21,860 bases of DNA, from IMG/VR virus record IMGVR_UViG_3300013102_000081, positions 1 through 21,860 of that record, one strand, 5' to 3'. The DNA comes from a virus. How positions within the stretch are numbered: position 1 is the first letter of the stretch; every line of letters starts with the position of its first letter. Below are positions 9,184 through 18,935 of this stretch, piece by piece. The translations under genes were made by a program, and so were the position numbers. The notes under the pieces were generated by a model that did no database searches, was not told the origin of the DNA, and saw only the letters and a list, made by a program, of their open reading frames with translations.

Positions 9184-9645
9184 TTACTTGAGGTAGCCGT
9201 CACCTGCGAGGCGCGGCGTGGGCGGTGCGAGCTTGCCCGGTGCGGGTGCAACAGGCGCCGTGGTGGGGGTTGTCCAGTTCGGGGCCGGTGCAGGCGCGGG
9301 TGCTGGCGCAACGTAGACGGGCGCAGGGGCGACGTAAACGGGCTGCGGTGCCACATATACCGGGGCGGGCTCAGGGGCGGCCATGGTTGGCGCGGGCGGC
9401 TCGGCAACGACAACATCAGCAGGCGCAACCACTGGCGCGGGCTCGGTGGTCGCGGTCGGTTCTGGTGCTGCTGTGGTCACGACTGGCTCCGGTGTTGGTG
9501 CGGGCGCTGCGGTGGTGGCCGGCGCGGTAACGGTGGTGGACGGTGCGGGCTGCGTGTCTGCGTTGGCGACAGCGAAACCTCCGAAAGCAATTGCTCCGAC
9601 GATGAGTGTCGAGAGCCCCCCAAGAACTGCTGATTTTGTTTCCAT
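9184..9645 (-). CDS. Secreted Pro/Ala/Thr-rich surface protein (reverse-strand moron candidate)
   Basis: 153 aa, antisense to the late operon. A clear signal peptide covers residues 1-29 (KSAVLGGLSTLIVGAIAFGG, cleavage predicted after ANA-29). No lipobox Cys and no LPXTG are present. The mature protein is low-complexity Pro/Ala/Thr/Val with three copies of PVYVAP at residues 95, 102 and 109 and an (AP)n run, then a short C-terminal tail. Such chains usually span or line the cell wall. The single reversed gene inside a tail operon, with its own promoter-like -10 six bases from the ATG, fits a moron expressed in the lysogen, perhaps altering surface access to other phages. Function is unproven. 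Low complexity could make the ORF look better than it is, but signal peptide plus promoter argue it is real. Confidence 0.75.
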   Translation of the reverse strand: METKSAVLGGLSTLIVGAIAFGGFAVANADTQPAPSTTVTAPATTAAPAPTPEPVVTTAAPEPTATTEPAPVVAPADVVVAEPPAPTMAAPEPAPVYVAPQPVYVAPAPVYVAPAPAPAPAPNWTTPTTAPVAPAPGKLAPPTPRLAGDGYLK

Positions 9646-10778: not shown

Positions 10779-11030
10779 ATGGGAATCCTCGACCCAAAAC
10801 CACTAACAGTTGCGGCAGGAAATGCCACTTATGTCCCTGCGTTGGCGGCAACGTCTGGCATCGTGTACGACGCCTCAACAGGCAACGTCACGAGTATCAC
10901 TGAGGGCGGGATCACTACCACCTTCACCTATAACGCCGATGGCACCGTGAATACGGAGTCGCGCCTCGGGAAGGTCCGCACCTGGGCCTACGACGCAAGC
11001 GGAAACCCTACTAGCTCAACGGTGGCCTGA
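10779..11030 (+). CDS. Small tail protein, beta-hairpin repeat type
   Basis: 83 aa. ATG 10779 follows AGGAG that overlaps the previous stop (TAGGAGCAACC). The sequence consists of Gly/Asn/Thr-rich beta-hairpin units (YDASTGNVTSITEGG, TFTYNADGTVNTESR, WAYDASGNPTSS), reminiscent of YD-type repeats and of the C-terminal modules of the two preceding proteins, though more diverged. It is probably a third, stand-alone version of that module. Confidence 0.65.
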   Translation: MGILDPKPLTVAAGNATYVPALAATSGIVYDASTGNVTSITEGGITTTFTYNADGTVNTESRLGKVRTWAYDASGNPTSSTVA

Positions 11031-11032
11031 AC

Positions 11033-12019
11033 ATGGACGTAGTAACCCTAGGCGCGGCAAAGGCTGACGCAAAAAAGAACTACCCAAAGAACATCAACGA
11101 CGGCAAGAAGCGCCTGCGCTTCCGGCCAGTGTCAAACTCTCCCGTTCTCCTGGCTTCGCAGTTCGGTCTGTCGAAGATCGACTCCCCGAACCTGATCTAT
11201 GTCCGCGATATGCTGCCAAGCGCCCCGGCAGACTACGCAATGATCGTGTCCACCAACCACGCGCTGGACACTTCAGACGGCACCTACCTTGCATGGGTGA
11301 CGAACCCGCTCGACCCGTCCACGTACACGATCTACGGACGCATCTACCAGGACCGGGTTGTGGGAATTTCAACGGAAACGGCCCGCATCATCAAGGTCCC
11401 GGAACTTGGCCTGTTCTACCTGTACTACCAGCAGTCCGGTGCCGGAAACAACCAGTCCACGCTCCTTGCCGTGAGCAAGGACCTGATGACGTGGGAGCGT
11501 ATCGGAGTCGTTATCGACTACGCGGAAGGCACCATGCCTGGCGATGGGCACACCGGCAACTACGGGCCCATCCAGCGCCACTCAGCGAACCGCTGGACGG
11601 CCCTAACCCTTATGGGCGGCACTAACTATGGGCGTATGGCTATCAGCCACTCAGCAGACGGCGTGCGCTGGCACATGGACCCGCACCCTATCTCGCCGTC
11701 TATCGAGATTGTTCGGGACGGTTCACTGGTTGATTCCCCGCAGGGTGGATTCTTCTACTTCAACGGCGAACTGTGGGGCCTCGGTTTCATTGGTATCAAC
11801 AGCTCCGGGCTGACGGTTACAACACGTGAAATCGTCGCCGGGCCAGTGTCGAGGGACTACCGGAACTGGGTGGGAAGGCCAAGCCAAGTATGGTTCCCCA
11901 CGGCCTCAACACAATCCCACGACATCCAATCAGCCCAGCTCGACGTAATCGGAGACACCCTGTATCTCCTGCTGACCGTTGGCAGCGACGTCCACATGGC
12001 AGTAGGTGAGGTTTACTAA
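11033..12019 (+). CDS. Tail fibre protein with five-bladed beta-propeller, glycosidase-like
   Basis: 328 aa. The N-terminal ~20 residues (VVTLGAAKADAKKNY) are a typical virion-attachment stretch. Residues ~30-328 carry propeller-like blades with repeated S-x-D-x(2)-x-W motifs (SKDLMTWERIG at 148-158; SHSADGVRWHM at 205-215) and interspersed aromatic strands. This pattern is known from GH43/GH32-type and sialidase-type propellers. A role in binding or trimming a cell-surface polysaccharide is inferred; the catalytic acids could not be assigned by eye. The gene's TAA overlaps the next ATG (TAATG). Confidence 0.72.
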   Translation: MDVVTLGAAKADAKKNYPKNINDGKKRLRFRPVSNSPVLLASQFGLSKIDSPNLIYVRDMLPSAPADYAMIVSTNHALDTSDGTYLAWVTNPLDPSTYTIYGRIYQDRVVGISTETARIIKVPELGLFYLYYQQSGAGNNQSTLLAVSKDLMTWERIGVVIDYAEGTMPGDGHTGNYGPIQRHSANRWTALTLMGGTNYGRMAISHSADGVRWHMDPHPISPSIEIVRDGSLVDSPQGGFFYFNGELWGLGFIGINSSGLTVTTREIVAGPVSRDYRNWVGRPSQVWFPTASTQSHDIQSAQLDVIGDTLYLLLTVGSDVHMAVGEVY

Positions 12020-13257
12020 TGGCACGCACAACCATGTCGAAGTTCGACACCGTATCCAGCGTCTGGCCTATCAGCGAATGGATCGTTAACCGGGTCAACA
12101 CTGGCAGCAATGCTAGCGTCACGTCAGAGGGTGGCCTTGCGGCAAGCTACTCTGCCAACCCGATGCACATGTACCGGCGTCACGCGCCCAACGCATCCCA
12201 GGTCGGCGTGCTTGCCAAGATGCGCCGCACAAATATTACAGCTACCCGGCGTGACTGGATTGTGGTCCGATCCTCCGGCGTTATCGACCCAAACGCAGCC
12301 GAACGCCCAACCTCTGGTATCGGCGTGAACATCAACAATGACGGACGCTTGGAACTGTTCAAGATCGTCAACGGCGTCTTCACATCCATCACAACGCTGA
12401 CCAAGGCGACGGGGACCGGCTTCTGGTGGTACCGGTTCGAGGCCATCGGCGGACTCAGGGTCAAGGCATGGGCAGATGGCACCAGCGAGCCGGGGACCTG
12501 GGATATAACGCAGAGCGACGACGGTACCGTGCCAGCAGGCGGTTTTGAACTGATTTCCTACAAGAACACCACGAGTGCCGGCGATGCCATCTGGTCATAC
12601 GTGGAAACCTACGCCCCGGCTGGTACGGCGGCGGTAGAGCCCGCCCCGATGATCTTCCGCACGCTCGACGGGGCGACGGTTCGGCATGGACGGTCCCTGC
12701 GTAAGCGTGCCGATGAGTGCTTTGATACCACCCAGCCCACATGGCTAACGGGTACCACGGCGTTCGACTCAGCGACGCTGCGTCGGTCCATAACGGCGGC
12801 GGCTGCTGGTTCGGCAACGCTGACCGCGCCGTCATTGACGGTGGACGCGCACTCCCGCGTCGATTTCGGCCTGGAGCAGGCCCGGCTGAGCGCCGAAACG
12901 CTGACGACAGTGGCAATCCAACTCGTGGGCACCAGCACTTACGCGCTAACCTCCACCCCTGCCGGTGGGCTGGTTCTGTCAGGGCCCGGAAGGTCATCGA
13001 CGTTGCTCACGGACTGGATCGGCGCCTCGGCCCGGAATACCGCCGGCGAAGGTATGCGCCCGCATAACTACTCGATAACCCTCTTGCCCAAGTACGGGCA
13101 GCTCATCGCATTCCAGGGTGAGAAGGTGATTGGGTGGCTGGACTTCGGAGCGCCGATTACCGGCAGCTTCACGCCAACCATCTCGCTGTCCACCACGGAC
13201 ACGGCGGCAAAGACGCTCAGCTACGGGCGGCTATTCCAGAACGTCGATTCCCTCTAG
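12019..13257 (+). CDS. Tail fibre protein with concanavalin/LamG-like lectin domains
   Basis: 412 aa, last gene of the rightward late operon. Residues ~55-200 look like a jelly-roll lectin (VGVLAKMRRTNITATRRDWI, then WYRFEAIGGLRVKAWADGTS with EPGTW), a motif set used by LamG/concanavalin-like domains that bind glycans. Residues ~230-405 form a second all-beta region of the same general style (HNYSITLLPKYGQLIAFQGE). The function is probably host-surface recognition in partnership with the propeller protein. The last 41 bp overlap the 3' end of the convergent mannosyltransferase gene, and the stop codon sits in a perfect palindrome. Confidence 0.72.
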   Translation: MARTTMSKFDTVSSVWPISEWIVNRVNTGSNASVTSEGGLAASYSANPMHMYRRHAPNASQVGVLAKMRRTNITATRRDWIVVRSSGVIDPNAAERPTSGIGVNINNDGRLELFKIVNGVFTSITTLTKATGTGFWWYRFEAIGGLRVKAWADGTSEPGTWDITQSDDGTVPAGGFELISYKNTTSAGDAIWSYVETYAPAGTAAVEPAPMIFRTLDGATVRHGRSLRKRADECFDTTQPTWLTGTTAFDSATLRRSITAAAAGSATLTAPSLTVDAHSRVDFGLEQARLSAETLTTVAIQLVGTSTYALTSTPAGGLVLSGPGRSSTLLTDWIGASARNTAGEGMRPHNYSITLLPKYGQLIAFQGEKVIGWLDFGAPITGSFTPTISLSTTDTAAKTLSYGRLFQNVDSL

Positions 13258-14473
13258 AGGGAATCGGGAGGTTGGCGAACGCGCCCCAAGTAAGAATGGC
13301 GAGAGCGACCAGCACTCTAGTGTCAGCGGTTATCCCCGGCAGCCACGCACTACTGCCGGGGATAACCGCAAGCAGCGGCGCGTAGAAGAACAGGGCGGTG
13401 ACTCCTGCCAGGGCAAGAGGCCATTCGGGATGGCGAGTCCTTGTGGCACTCACAGCAAGTGCCGCCACAACTAAGGCAACCCAGACCCAGTGATGGGTCC
13501 ACGAGATTGGCGATACCAGCAGCATTGCGAGGGCCGCGAACGACAGGCTGAGCGCTACTTCACCGCTTGCCCGGCGCCGCTGGATCGCCAACAGAGCCAT
13601 GAAGCCTACCGCGGCCGACGCGGCGAGCCATGCAACCGTCGCCGTTGAGCCTTCCACGCCAAGCCTTGCTATTAGGCCATTGACGGATGCGTTGCTCACG
13701 TTGGCCACATCGCCTACGCGGCTGGTGTCCGAAAGAGCGCCACCCCAGTAAGTCAGTGCATCGGCCGGGGAAAGCAAGAACATGATCCCGACCGTGGCGG
13801 CGAACGACGCAATGGCGGTGGCGGCGCCCTTCCAGTCCCTCCGGGCTACGAAGAAGACGAGGAGCACAATCGGCGTCAGCTTGATGCCGGCCGCTATCCC
13901 CACAAACATGCCCCGGCCCCGGTGCAGAAGATAGACGTCCCCGATGATCATGATCATCAAGACGTGGTTGATCTGCCCGAATTTCAGCGTCTCCATCCAC
14001 GGGACTGTAAGCAGCATGGCCGCGGCCCCTGCGGCTGTCAGCGCAGTCTGCTCCAAACGCGGCAGCTTCGGTCCAAAGCGGCGGACAAACCAGAACGCGA
14101 GCACTGCGGCTCCGGCGAAGATGCTGGCAGTGTGGAGCGCCAGTGCGATCTTAAACGGGAGGAAAGCCATTGGCGCGAACAGGGCCGCGGCGAACGGCGG
14201 GTAGGTGAACGCCAGCCCATCCGGGTGGGCCTCACTGACGGTGCCCGGCATCCCGCCAGGGTAAAGATCGCCCGGCTCCATCCCCAGGAAGACCCTGGCC
14301 GCCGACCAGTAGACGTTGAAATCCGCTCCAATGCCACGCTCGGCGCGAAGTCTCAGGAAGATAACCCCAACAGCCAAGATAGAAACTGCTGCAAGAGCAA
14401 CCGCAGCCACAGTCCGATACTTGGTTACGAGCTGCACGGCGCGGCCCAGCACGGCCTTATCCCCCAAAGTCAT
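13217..14473 (-). CDS. GT87-family (DUF2029) polyprenol-phosphate-mannose-dependent mannosyltransferase
   Basis: 418 aa with about ten membrane helices. GT-C enzymes of family GT87 (for example PimE) transfer alpha-1,2-mannose from a polyprenyl carrier to envelope glycolipids or glycans on the outer face of the membrane. Family marks visible in order are: the catalytic-type Asp in GADFNVYWSAARVF (D51), FTYPPFAAALFAP (89-101), LKFGQINHVLM (163-173), GIAAGIKLTPIVLL (192-205), NVSNASVNGLIAR (258-270) and SPISWTHHWVW (321-331). All are intact, so the gene looks functional. It points against the tail operon and toward it, and starts from a TAGAAT -10-like box. A mannosyltransferase next to attP fits lysogenic conversion of the host's mannan-type surface. 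Acceptor and product are unknown. Confidence 0.9.
   Translation of the reverse strand: MTLGDKAVLGRAVQLVTKYRTVAAVALAAVSILAVGVIFLRLRAERGIGADFNVYWSAARVFLGMEPGDLYPGGMPGTVSEAHPDGLAFTYPPFAAALFAPMAFLPFKIALALHTASIFAGAAVLAFWFVRRFGPKLPRLEQTALTAAGAAAMLLTVPWMETLKFGQINHVLMIMIIGDVYLLHRGRGMFVGIAAGIKLTPIVLLVFFVARRDWKGAATAIASFAATVGIMFLLSPADALTYWGGALSDTSRVGDVANVSNASVNGLIARLGVEGSTATVAWLAASAAVGFMALLAIQRRRASGEVALSLSFAALAMLLVSPISWTHHWVWVALVVAALAVSATRTRHPEWPLALAGVTALFFYAPLLAVIPGSSAWLPGITADTRVLVALAILTWGAFANLPIPSRGNRRSGIAARS
13245..13266. repeat. Perfect 22-nt palindrome over the fibre stop codon
   Basis: CGATTCCCTCT (13245-13255) is followed directly by its exact reverse complement (13256-13266). The TAG stop of the fibre gene lies at its centre and the sequence also encodes the mannosyltransferase C-terminus. 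As RNA it can form an ~8-9-bp hairpin on either strand. No T-tract follows. Confidence 0.8.
13326..13369. repeat. 17-bp perfect inverted repeat, 10-nt loop, after the late operon
   Basis: Arms at 13326-13342 and 13353-13369 pair at all 17 positions. The repeat starts 69 bp after the fibre stop, inside the mannosyltransferase coding region (around its residues AVIPGSSAWLPGIT). The RNA hairpin would be very stable on both strands. There is no T-run, so it is not a textbook intrinsic terminator; it may act as a Rho-linked terminator, a 3'-end stabiliser or a barrier to antisense readthrough. Confidence 0.8.
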
Positions 14474-14480
14474 GAGCCCA

Positions 14481-14486
14481 ATTCTA
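14481..14486 (-). promoter_or_regulatory. -10-like hexamer for the mannosyltransferase gene (leaderless)
   Basis: TAGAAT on the reverse strand ends 7 nt before the ATG at 14473. No Shine-Dalgarno sequence separates them, so a leaderless transcript is the natural reading. The expected -35 position falls in the hairpin at 14501-14532 and is a weak match. Confidence 0.55.
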
Positions 14487-14500
14487 AGGCTACGAAAGAC

Positions 14501-14532
14501 CGGAAGTGCCCGTTAAGTGGCGGGCACTTCCG
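14501..14532. repeat. 12-bp inverted repeat between divergent mannosyltransferase and HNH genes
   Basis: CGGAAGTGCCCG (14501-14512) and its exact complement (14521-14532) flank an 8-nt loop. It lies just upstream of the leaderless reverse promoter and of the rightward promoter-leader. It could be an operator for both genes or a terminator for antisense readthrough (the reverse-strand flank is GTCTTTCG); the sequence does not decide. Confidence 0.7.
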
Positions 14533-14634: not shown

Positions 14635-15183
14635 ATGTCTATTGTCACCCGCGTATGCCACCGCTGCAAAGTAGAGCAGCCCATCGACCAGTTTTACGTC
14701 GAATCCGAAGCTCGGGCCAGCGCCAGACGTGGCAAGAAAACCAAGCAGCCATGCCGCACCTGCAACCAGCGATACCAGGCAGAACGCCGCGCACCACGGC
14801 AGGCCATCGTGGACAAGCTCAAAGCCGAATCAGGCTGCATGGACTGCGGCTTGCATCCGAAGTACCCGCAAGTCTTGGAGTTCGATCACCGACCGGATGA
14901 GAAGAAGCTGTTCCACATCTCCGACCGCATGACCAACGGCACCATAGAAGACCTCCTAACCGAGATCGCTAAGTGCGACATCGTATGCGCCAACTGCCAC
15001 CGCGTCCGCACTGTGGAGAAGAACCAGTTCGGACAGGATCGCGGAACTACCCGCACCCGCATGAAGCAGGTCTACAAGGATAGGCTCGCCGGCCTCGGTC
15101 ATATCTGGGAAGACTCGGAAGTGGCTGCGGCTACCCGCTCGGAACTTGCCAACCAGCTAGAGCTAGACCTATTCGCAGCCTGA
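14635..15183 (+). CDS. HNH endonuclease
   Basis: 182 aa from ATG 14635 (AGGGAG, 7-nt spacer). An upstream in-frame TTG at 14590 lies in the leader hairpin loop and is rejected. An N-terminal zinc-ribbon has C8/C11 and C40/C43. The HNH fold follows: C68-x2-C71, the catalytic-type LEFDHRP (D84-H85), KCDIVCANCHRVRT with C118/C121, N120 and H122. This ribbon-plus-HNH arrangement is widespread in actinophages and cuts DNA; roles include DNA packaging, homing or exclusion. Here it stands alone next to attP with its own leader and a strong terminator, away from any terminase, which argues against a packaging role. Confidence 0.88.
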   Translation: MSIVTRVCHRCKVEQPIDQFYVESEARASARRGKKTKQPCRTCNQRYQAERRAPRQAIVDKLKAESGCMDCGLHPKYPQVLEFDHRPDEKKLFHISDRMTNGTIEDLLTEIAKCDIVCANCHRVRTVEKNQFGQDRGTTRTRMKQVYKDRLAGLGHIWEDSEVAAATRSELANQLELDLFAA

Positions 15184-15191
15184 ACCACAGC

Positions 15192-15223
15192 GCCCCGTCA
15201 TCTTCGGATGGCGGGGCCTTTTT
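15192..15223 (+). terminator. Intrinsic terminator after the HNH gene
   Basis: An 11-bp stem (GCCCCGTCATC with one G-T pair) has a TTCG tetraloop closed by C-G and is followed by CTTTTT. It starts 9 nt after the HNH stop and isolates that gene from the attP region. Confidence 0.92.
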
Positions 15224-15332: not shown

Positions 15333-15362
15333 AAAAACCCCTAGATCTCGCGGATCTAGGGG
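15333..15362 (-). terminator. Intrinsic terminator behind the tRNA-Met half
   Basis: On the reverse strand a perfect 10-bp stem (CCCCTAGATC / GATCTAGGGG, loop of 5) is followed by TTTTTCT, 13 nt after the tRNA 3' end. It would end transcription of the host tRNA regenerated by integration. Its arm also resembles the flanking repeat at 15466-15489, so it may double as an integrase-binding site. Confidence 0.85.
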
Positions 15363-15374
15363 CCTTCTGTTCTG

Positions 15375-15426
15375 TAGCGGTGGGGAGGCTCGATCTCCCG
15401 ACCTCACGATTATGAGTCGTGCGCTC
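15375..15426 (-). other. attP core: 3' half of a tRNA-Met(CAT) gene
   Basis: Reverse strand: D-stem 3' strand GAGC, G, anticodon stem CACGA, loop CTCATAA (anticodon CAT, 15412-15414), stem TCGTG, variable AGGTC, T-arm GGGAG-ATCGAGC-CTCCC, acceptor CACCGCT and discriminator A. The acceptor 5' strand and D-arm 5' half are missing, so this is not a working tRNA gene. Phages that integrate into tRNA genes carry exactly this 3' part to restore the gene on insertion. The matching attB would be an intact tRNA-Met gene. Confidence 0.85.
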
Positions 15427-17444: not shown

Positions 17445-17743
17445 TCCCGGACGAGGCGGTAGAAGCGGCGGCGCGAGGTTTAGCTGTGCAGAAGTGGCCC
17501 ACCGCGATAGGCGTGTGGGACTCGTTCGGGCAGGGCATGAAGAATGACTTCCGCGACCAAGCTCGCGCCGCCCTCGAAGCCGCAGCCCCGCACCTTATGG
17601 CTGCCATTCTCGCCCTGCACAGCAAATCAATCGGCTCCTACACCGACGCTGATGGCTGCAAGTGGACAGGCGATTACTGCCAGCATTGCAGGCGTGAATG
17701 GCCCTGTGAGACGGCGGAATTAGTAGAGTCCGCGAATGGCTAG
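17441..17743 (+). CDS. DEAVEAA-type hypothetical protein with C-terminal cysteine cluster
   Basis: 100 aa from GTG 17441 (GTGA overlap, AAGGAG 7 nt upstream). Residues 1-60 are the DEAVEAAARGLA...ARAALEAAAPHL unit also found at 16376-16525. Residues ~70-90 hold C73, C80, C83 and C89 (GDYCQHCRREWPC), a likely zinc knuckle. The 3' end overlaps the integrase start by 8 bp, so integrase translation may depend on it. Function unknown. Confidence 0.75.
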   Translation: MIPDEAVEAAARGLAVQKWPTAIGVWDSFGQGMKNDFRDQARAALEAAAPHLMAAILALHSKSIGSYTDADGCKWTGDYCQHCRREWPCETAELVESANG

Positions 17744-18935
17744 GGGCAAGGGGGAAGGCTCAATCTACAAGCGGGCCAGTGACGGCATGTGGTGTACGTC
17801 GATTGAGTTGCCGCCGGGCCTGGATGGGAAACGACGGCGCAAGGTGGTTTGCCGCAAGAACAAGCCTGACGTGGTGGCTGAGTTGCGGAAAATCCAGGCC
17901 GAACTAGCTAAACGCGGCGACCTGCAAACCAACTCAATCACGCTGGCTAAATGGGCGGCTCACTGGTTGGACAAGATCGCACCCAAGGACATCAAGCCGC
18001 GGACGCTCGCAGGGTACAGGACGGTGATAGACGGCTATGTCGTGCCCGTGCTCGGCAAGAAAACGCTGGGGAAGATCAGCGCCCAAGACGTGCGCCGGCT
18101 CCACGAGGTCATGGCAGCCACCCCCAAGGATCCGAAACTCAGGGGCGGGCGGGAACTTCCGGCAGATACCGTCATGCTGTCCAGTACCTACTGCCTACTC
18201 GCGCACAACGCACTCTCCGTCATGCTCGGCGCCGCCATGAACGAAGGCAAAATCCCCGCCAACCCCTGCGACCTCGTATCGCGGCCCAGGAAGCGAGTGA
18301 CCGACCAAAAGGCGCTGACGCTGCAACAATCCATGGACCTCCTGCTATACCTCAGCACCCACAAAGACCTAGCACTCTGGGCCTGCTACCTACTCACCGG
18401 GGCCAGGCGCGGGGAGATCATCGGCCTCGAACGCGACCGGGTAACCGACGTACTGGACCTGTCGTGGCAGCTCCAACGTATCACCAACATCAAAGACGTG
18501 CCCGACGATTTCGAGTACCGACAAGTCAAGTCCACGCTCTACCTAACCCGGCCCAAATCATCGTCCGGTTGGCGCATCATCCCACTAGTCGAACCGCTAA
18601 AGTCCATCCTCGATCTGCACCTACAGCAGCCCGCGGATGACAACCTGGTGTTCCACGAAGACGGCAGGCCATGGGATCCGGACCGGGTAACGAAAGCCTG
18701 GAAACAACTCATGCGCGACGCCGGGCTACCCGAAGACGTTGTACTCCACGGCGCCCGGCATACAACCGTGGACCTGCTCTACGCCGCCAAGGTCCCCGAA
18801 GACCTCATCCAAGAGATAGTCGGGCACTCCACAAGGGCCATGACACGCCTCTACAAGACCCGCACAGACACCGCCAGAGCACGTGCAGGCATGGAGGCAC
18901 TATCCGCGCTCCTACGCCCGCAAATCGAAGCATGA
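17736..18935 (+). CDS. int: Tyrosine-family integrase
   Basis: 399 aa. Residues 1-60 form the N-terminal arm-binding domain (GKGEGSIYKRASDGMWC, GKRRRKVVCR). Residues ~65-180 form the core-binding domain (AKWAAHWLDKIAPKDIKPRT). The catalytic domain has R224 (TGARRGE), K274 (RPKSSSG), H338 and R341 (HGARHT), H364 (VGHS) and nucleophile Y373 (RLYKTR), so all active-site residues are present. It catalyses site-specific insertion at attP/attB. The gene points away from attP, which lies 2.3 kb upstream, and is the last gene of the methyltransferase operon. Confidence 0.97.
   Translation: MARGKGEGSIYKRASDGMWCTSIELPPGLDGKRRRKVVCRKNKPDVVAELRKIQAELAKRGDLQTNSITLAKWAAHWLDKIAPKDIKPRTLAGYRTVIDGYVVPVLGKKTLGKISAQDVRRLHEVMAATPKDPKLRGGRELPADTVMLSSTYCLLAHNALSVMLGAAMNEGKIPANPCDLVSRPRKRVTDQKALTLQQSMDLLLYLSTHKDLALWACYLLTGARRGEIIGLERDRVTDVLDLSWQLQRITNIKDVPDDFEYRQVKSTLYLTRPKSSSGWRIIPLVEPLKSILDLHLQQPADDNLVFHEDGRPWDPDRVTKAWKQLMRDAGLPEDVVLHGARHTTVDLLYAAKVPEDLIQEIVGHSTRAMTRLYKTRTDTARARAGMEALSALLRPQIEA

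Follow-up and report, generated by a model that had tools for sequence, protein, structure and literature searches.

Phages of Gram-negative bacteria are well known to change the surface sugars of their hosts. In the serotype-converting phage SfV, the genes are arranged in the order tail fibre (forward strand), gtrV, gtrB and gtrA (all on the reverse strand) and integrase, and previous studies reported that gtr clusters are always located beside attP (PMC3636060). Previous studies of the mycobacterial enzyme PimE (Rv1159), a PPM-dependent alpha-1,2-mannosyltransferase of family GT87, found that its activity requires residues D58, Y62, Y92, Q163, K195 and W319 and is reduced in mutants of H321 and H322 (PMC12041525). 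Another mycobacterial GT-C enzyme, MptC (Rv2181), adds single alpha-1,2-mannose side chains onto lipomannan, and in Micrococcus luteus the homologues of MptA and MptB adjoin a further GT-C gene (PMC3229680). Among temperate actinobacteriophages, the lysogenically expressed defence genes of mycobacteriophage Sbash and Gordonia phage CarolAnn are variable, central in the genome and close to the integration locus, as is the gene characterized here, whereas their products are others, and the available text of these reports describes no glycan-modifying mechanism for them (PMC6426596, PMC6426606).

The DNA analyzed was a complete virus record from IMG/VR, 21,860 bases long and classed as linear, which is referred to below as the window. 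On its minus strand we found a GT87 gene (13217-14473) which encodes a polytopic membrane glycosyltransferase of 418 aa, identified by Pfam, alignment with PimE and Foldseek. The protein matched the Pfam GT87 profile (PF09594) over its full length (1-237 of 237, E=1.1e-48, 166.5 bits against a gathering cut-off of 25), and the codon-position GC of the gene resembles that of the adjoining genes. It is convergent with the last tail gene, which it overlaps by 41 bp, and lies on the strand opposite to the late operon. An earlier note on this DNA had described an intact GT87 membrane enzyme, encoded in a phage genome in the orientation opposite to the late operon, and both the intactness and the orientation were borne out. 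The closest solved structure, and the sole solved relative by sequence, is mycobacterial PimE (9dm5, 1.1e-24). In the alignment, D51, Y55, Y91, Q167, K198, W325, H327 and H328 of the phage enzyme correspond to D58, Y62, Y92, Q163, K195, W319, H321 and H322 of PimE, that is, all alignable catalytic and donor-phosphate residues (8/8) are identical, and as in GT-C enzymes the catalytic Asp (D51) is located in the first outer loop with the donor-phosphate residues conserved. The AF2 model of the phage enzyme (built from ten relatives, mean pLDDT 73.5) was nearest to PimE (TM 0.69/0.75, Foldseek 2.3e-10), and the next Foldseek matches were dolichol-P-sugar GT-C enzymes.

PimE and the phage enzyme therefore have the fold, the catalytic Asp and the donor-phosphate residues in common (PMC12041525). 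Unlike PimE, the phage-borne protein scored 163 bits with the NCBIfam PimE equivalog, below its cut-off of 413, and the acceptor-contact residues D160 and Y161 of PimE are replaced by K164 and F165. PimE orthology was ruled out on these two grounds, so the earlier label "PimE-type" is right as to family and fold and wrong as to function. Since the donor residues are conserved while the PimE-acceptor residues are replaced and the equivalog score is low, the phage enzyme very probably uses a polyprenyl-P-sugar donor, and its acceptor very probably differs from that of PimE, Ac1PIM4. By analogy with PimE and MptC, the donor sugar is most likely mannose and the predicted reaction is a side-branch mannosyltransfer. 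The likeness to MptC concerns the expected reaction type only, which may be the addition of one mannose branch from polyprenyl-P-mannose to a lipomannan-type backbone.

The contig is a temperate Arthrobacter-type siphovirus. Its tape measure protein has about 45-60% identity to the counterparts in RootBeer and other Arthrobacter phages, matches to phage families were obtained for its tail, HNH, methylase and integrase genes, and the late genes are located left of attP and the integrase and early genes right of it, an order which Kumotta and RootBeer share. An assembly chimera was considered and judged unlikely, given the tail-gene overlap, the matching GC and the flanks in phage order. A stretch of 56 bp (15371-15426, minus strand) matches the 3' half of the host tRNA-Met(CAT) of Micrococcaceae-type genomes without a mismatch, and we infer this naming of the attB-bearing genomes from the link to Arthrobacter phages. 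Moreover, 53 bp of it recur unchanged on the 5' side of the integrase gene of phages Kumotta and MargaretKali, and a phage-supplied terminator (15338-15362, minus strand) would replace the tRNA-Met terminator upon integration. Because of the tRNA-Met identity and the phage-supplied terminator, we regard 15371-15426 as the attP of a temperate phage. The tyrosine integrase (17736-18935, plus strand, PF00589/PF14659) has relatives at 62-80%, two of which carry the exact attP core; for related-integrase prophages in seven genomes of the attB-bearing family, no duplicated tRNA-Met core flanking the integrase was found in any. The GT87 gene had earlier been placed next to attP, and indeed the two are 0.9 kb apart, with an HNH endonuclease gene in between (14635-15183, plus strand, phrog_2255 E=3.9e-37) that is followed by an intrinsic terminator (15192-15217, plus strand).

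When compared with gtrV-gtrB-gtrA of SfV, representing the Shigella and Salmonella gtr loci, the window likewise has a polytopic glycosyltransferase of the same size class, encoded on the strand opposite to the tail genes and between the tail fibre and attP/int (PMC3636060). However, the window has one gene where SfV has three, its product belongs to GT87 instead of being a Gtr(type) protein, its actinobacterial host has no O-antigen, and the HNH gene separates it from attP. The neighbours of the GT87 gene are a tail gene and the HNH gene, with neither the gtrA flippase nor the gtrB donor synthase beside it. A single GT-C gene of this kind would have to obtain its polyprenyl-P-mannose donor from the host, and since host relatives possess GT87 genes, the donor pathway is likely present there. 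The proposal of the earlier note, an actinobacterial counterpart of O-antigen conversion in Gram-negative bacteria, agrees by analogy with a PPM-type GT-C enzyme in the same locus position (PMC3636060) and with a slot that holds other envelope enzymes in related phages.

Located after the last tail gene and before attP/int, this slot contained different reversed genes across the related Arthrobacter and Rhodococcus phages: a signal-anchored SGNH-like hydrolase in RootBeer, a secreted SGNH esterase in Shoya, an acyltransferase-3/SGNH O-acetyltransferase in Hum25, a hydrolase, an acetyltransferase and a membrane protein in Kukla, and an SGNH esterase in Rhodococcus phage Mbo4. Three further relatives, retrieved from IMG/VR through the similarity of their integrases, had a lipoprotein in L169, a 2-TM protein in L170 and a TM-anchored SGNH enzyme in L174. 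In all of them, as in the window, a reversed gene for a membrane or secreted product follows the last tail gene. The slot was empty in the relative L167, and no reversed gene was seen in L166 or Kumotta; the frequency of filled slots is biased, as Shoya, Hum25, Kukla and Mbo4 were found through similarity to the gene of RootBeer or of one another. Judged from its gene content, the slot repeatedly serves as a site for cargo genes, most of them envelope-directed. The slot genes of Hum25, Kukla, Shoya and RootBeer resemble the GT87 gene in being reversed, envelope-directed and located between the last tail gene and the integrase region, whereas their chemistry is that of acyl groups and esters and that of the phage GT87 is, by prediction, mannosylation.

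The adjoining tail protein also has an SGNH domain in RootBeer, Hum25, L174 and, weakly, Shoya. In Hum25 (L176, 6854-10093), a tail SGNH esterase directly adjoins a reversed membrane O-acetyltransferase that itself includes an SGNH domain, two opposite chemistries. In Klebsiella prophages, SGNH tail proteins are confirmed esterases, and acetyltransferases are also common cargo (PMC13123978). Tentatively, and with more doubt than confidence, we suggest that Arthrobacter-type temperate phages share a slot in which a reversed envelope enzyme is paired, by glycan chemistry, with the tail-tip protein next to it (an SGNH tail going with an SGNH enzyme or O-acetyltransferase, a glycoside-propeller tail with a mannosyltransferase), and which could serve as a receptor-and-receptor-masker module in Gram-positive actinobacteria, GT87 being its one-gene version that borrows host polyprenyl-P-mannose. 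In the window itself the matching chemistry is only a suggestion, since the propeller signal of the tail is weak: the fibre gene at 11033-12019 (plus strand, 328 aa) resembles five-bladed-propeller glycoside enzymes (GH130/GH32/GH43) at E values of 0.003-0.085, and its single-sequence AF2 model (pLDDT 32) was not used. Of the two neighbouring fibres named earlier, the "propeller" thus stands weakly, and the "lectin", the last tail/fibre gene of the late operon (12019-13257, plus strand, 412 aa), is without known family and had no family match in support of that name.

The presumed promoter and start region of the GT87 gene (14474-14498, minus strand) contains a -10-like TAGAAT (14481-14486), 7 nt ahead of the ATG, and no Shine-Dalgarno sequence is present at the start, so that the transcript may be leaderless. 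A TANNNT hexamer occurred within 45 nt upstream in 8/10 reversed slot genes, against a background of 5/42 among internal late genes and 10% among random 45-mers. The difference is suggestive, as the hexamer was picked after the sequences had been inspected, and would be an indirect sign of expression in lysogens. The promoter-like element of the earlier note is therefore retained in the form of this hexamer, of a kind enriched before reversed slot genes, and not as a sigma-70 promoter, for which a consensus scan found no site at the GT87 gene. In addition, perfect inverted repeats with arms of at least 11 bp number only four in the window, against 0.3 expected from shuffled sequence, and three of them are located in the GT87 locus. 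A perfect 22-bp palindrome (13245-13266) at the convergent 3' ends of the tail and GT87 genes is likely a bidirectional terminator. A perfect 17-bp inverted repeat (13326-13369, about -38 kcal/mol), far above chance, lies inside the 3' coding part of the GT87 gene, starts 69 nt past the stop of the tail gene and is a candidate terminator of the late operon. A perfect 12-bp inverted repeat with an 8-nt loop (14501-14532), between the GT87 start and the divergent HNH gene, may be an operator or insulator. Together, the three could be terminators plus an operator or insulator which would isolate the gene from the late operon.

Because the enzyme is intact with a conserved active site and because of its fold, its position, its orientation, the attP and the recurrent envelope slot, we propose, with a probability of about 0.6, that the GT87 gene is a one-gene lysogenic-conversion locus whose product mannosylates a lipomannan-type surface glycan or glycolipid, so that the cell surface is changed and productive adsorptions are likely fewer. 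In this process, the lysogen would express GT87 from its own promoter, and the product in the host membrane would take a sugar, most likely mannose, from the outward-facing polyprenyl-phosphate-mannose of the host and transfer it onto a lipomannan-type glycan or glycolipid outside the cytoplasm, giving an altered cell surface. The likeliest benefit, as with gtr genes, would be that phages, the same or others, adsorb productively less often, and it is plausible, as suggested before, that the enzyme masks the phage's own receptor. The relatives with an empty slot or no reversed gene (L167, L166 and Kumotta) count against this proposal, as do the replaced acceptor residues and the single virus record with a full-length gene.

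The origin of the gene bears on the possibility that GT87 is a passenger, picked up from beside the attachment site by faulty excision and under little selection. GT87 genes are present in 165/395 genomes of the attB-bearing family, and in most attB-bearing genomes checked (G303, G159, G331, G186, G009, G384, G284, G103 and others) a chromosomal GT87 gene is located about 5-16 kb from the same tRNA-Met, on its 5' side, which is consistent with such a pick-up and probably represents one conserved synteny and not many events. Closer still is the GT87 gene of genome G633 (L147 14511-15981, 418 aa), the nearest relative by tree path and highest reported identity, which is 140 bp from the tRNA-Met 3' end and is flanked by the tRNA terminator and by a gene which in another genome comes immediately after the tRNA. 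However, none of the host genes exceeded 47% identity to the phage gene among the matches listed, and the phage gene has a long branch, yet its frame and active site are intact, which argues that it has long been kept; moreover, aberrant excision would put host DNA at the other side of the att core. We therefore consider the passenger origin improbable. The trees, a check the earlier note had named, placed the phage gene within the family's Micrococcaceae GT87 clade (support 100/99), and with the same long branch and identity ceiling a recent host capture was rejected. The sister position of the G633 gene was weakly supported (84/37), and a reading of this gene as a remnant of the same prophage was not borne out, as its orientation is opposite and no second att core was found there. 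The placement of this nearest relative at the tRNA-Met suggests that GT87 genes move through an integration hotspot. Among 50,697 phage records, the sole GT87 match was partial, at 34%, in an unannotated, unverified faecal contig, the IMG/VR peptide-seed scans found no other GT87 virus contig, and the seven integrase relatives had no GT87 by Pfam; within these records and scans, a full-length GT87 gene is seen in only one virus record.

The same anatomy would also be expected if the envelope change served the general fitness of the lysogen (stress, grazing, attachment) with no effect on adsorption, and many prophage cargo genes aid host fitness. A second reversed gene of the window (9184-9645, minus strand), which encodes a secreted Pro/Ala-rich protein of 153 aa with PXPV-like repeats and a signal peptide recognized by eye, seems unrelated to glycan receptors and fits this explanation; however, the slots of the relatives hold glycan esterases and O-acetyltransferases, often beside SGNH tail proteins, which points to phage-receptor chemistry, and we consider a pure fitness role rather unlikely. 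That GT87 acts in lytic growth, for example by decorating the lysed envelope or blocking re-adsorption of progeny to debris, would agree with its place adjoining the late genes, but the gene is convergent with the late operon on the opposite strand, with strong hairpins in between, and this role is highly improbable.

If lysogenic conversion by GT87 is true, actinobacteria, which build their lipomannan-type glycans with the enzyme families also used by mycobacteria, are subject to the same phage strategy of changing surface sugars as Gram-negative bacteria. It would also provide a natural tool for testing which envelope glycans Arthrobacter phages use, and the slot would be a position in related phage genomes at which to seek more envelope-modifying enzymes.

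When characterizing the surrounding regions, we observed that the 3' flank of the tRNA-Met is highly variable in 20 genomes (L183-L202), some with resolvase-like or other inserts, as at an integration hotspot. Within the late operon of the window, the reversed gene at 9184-9645 fills the gap between two forward genes, and a short tail gene at 10779-11030 has an RHS repeat (Pfam 1.2e-9).
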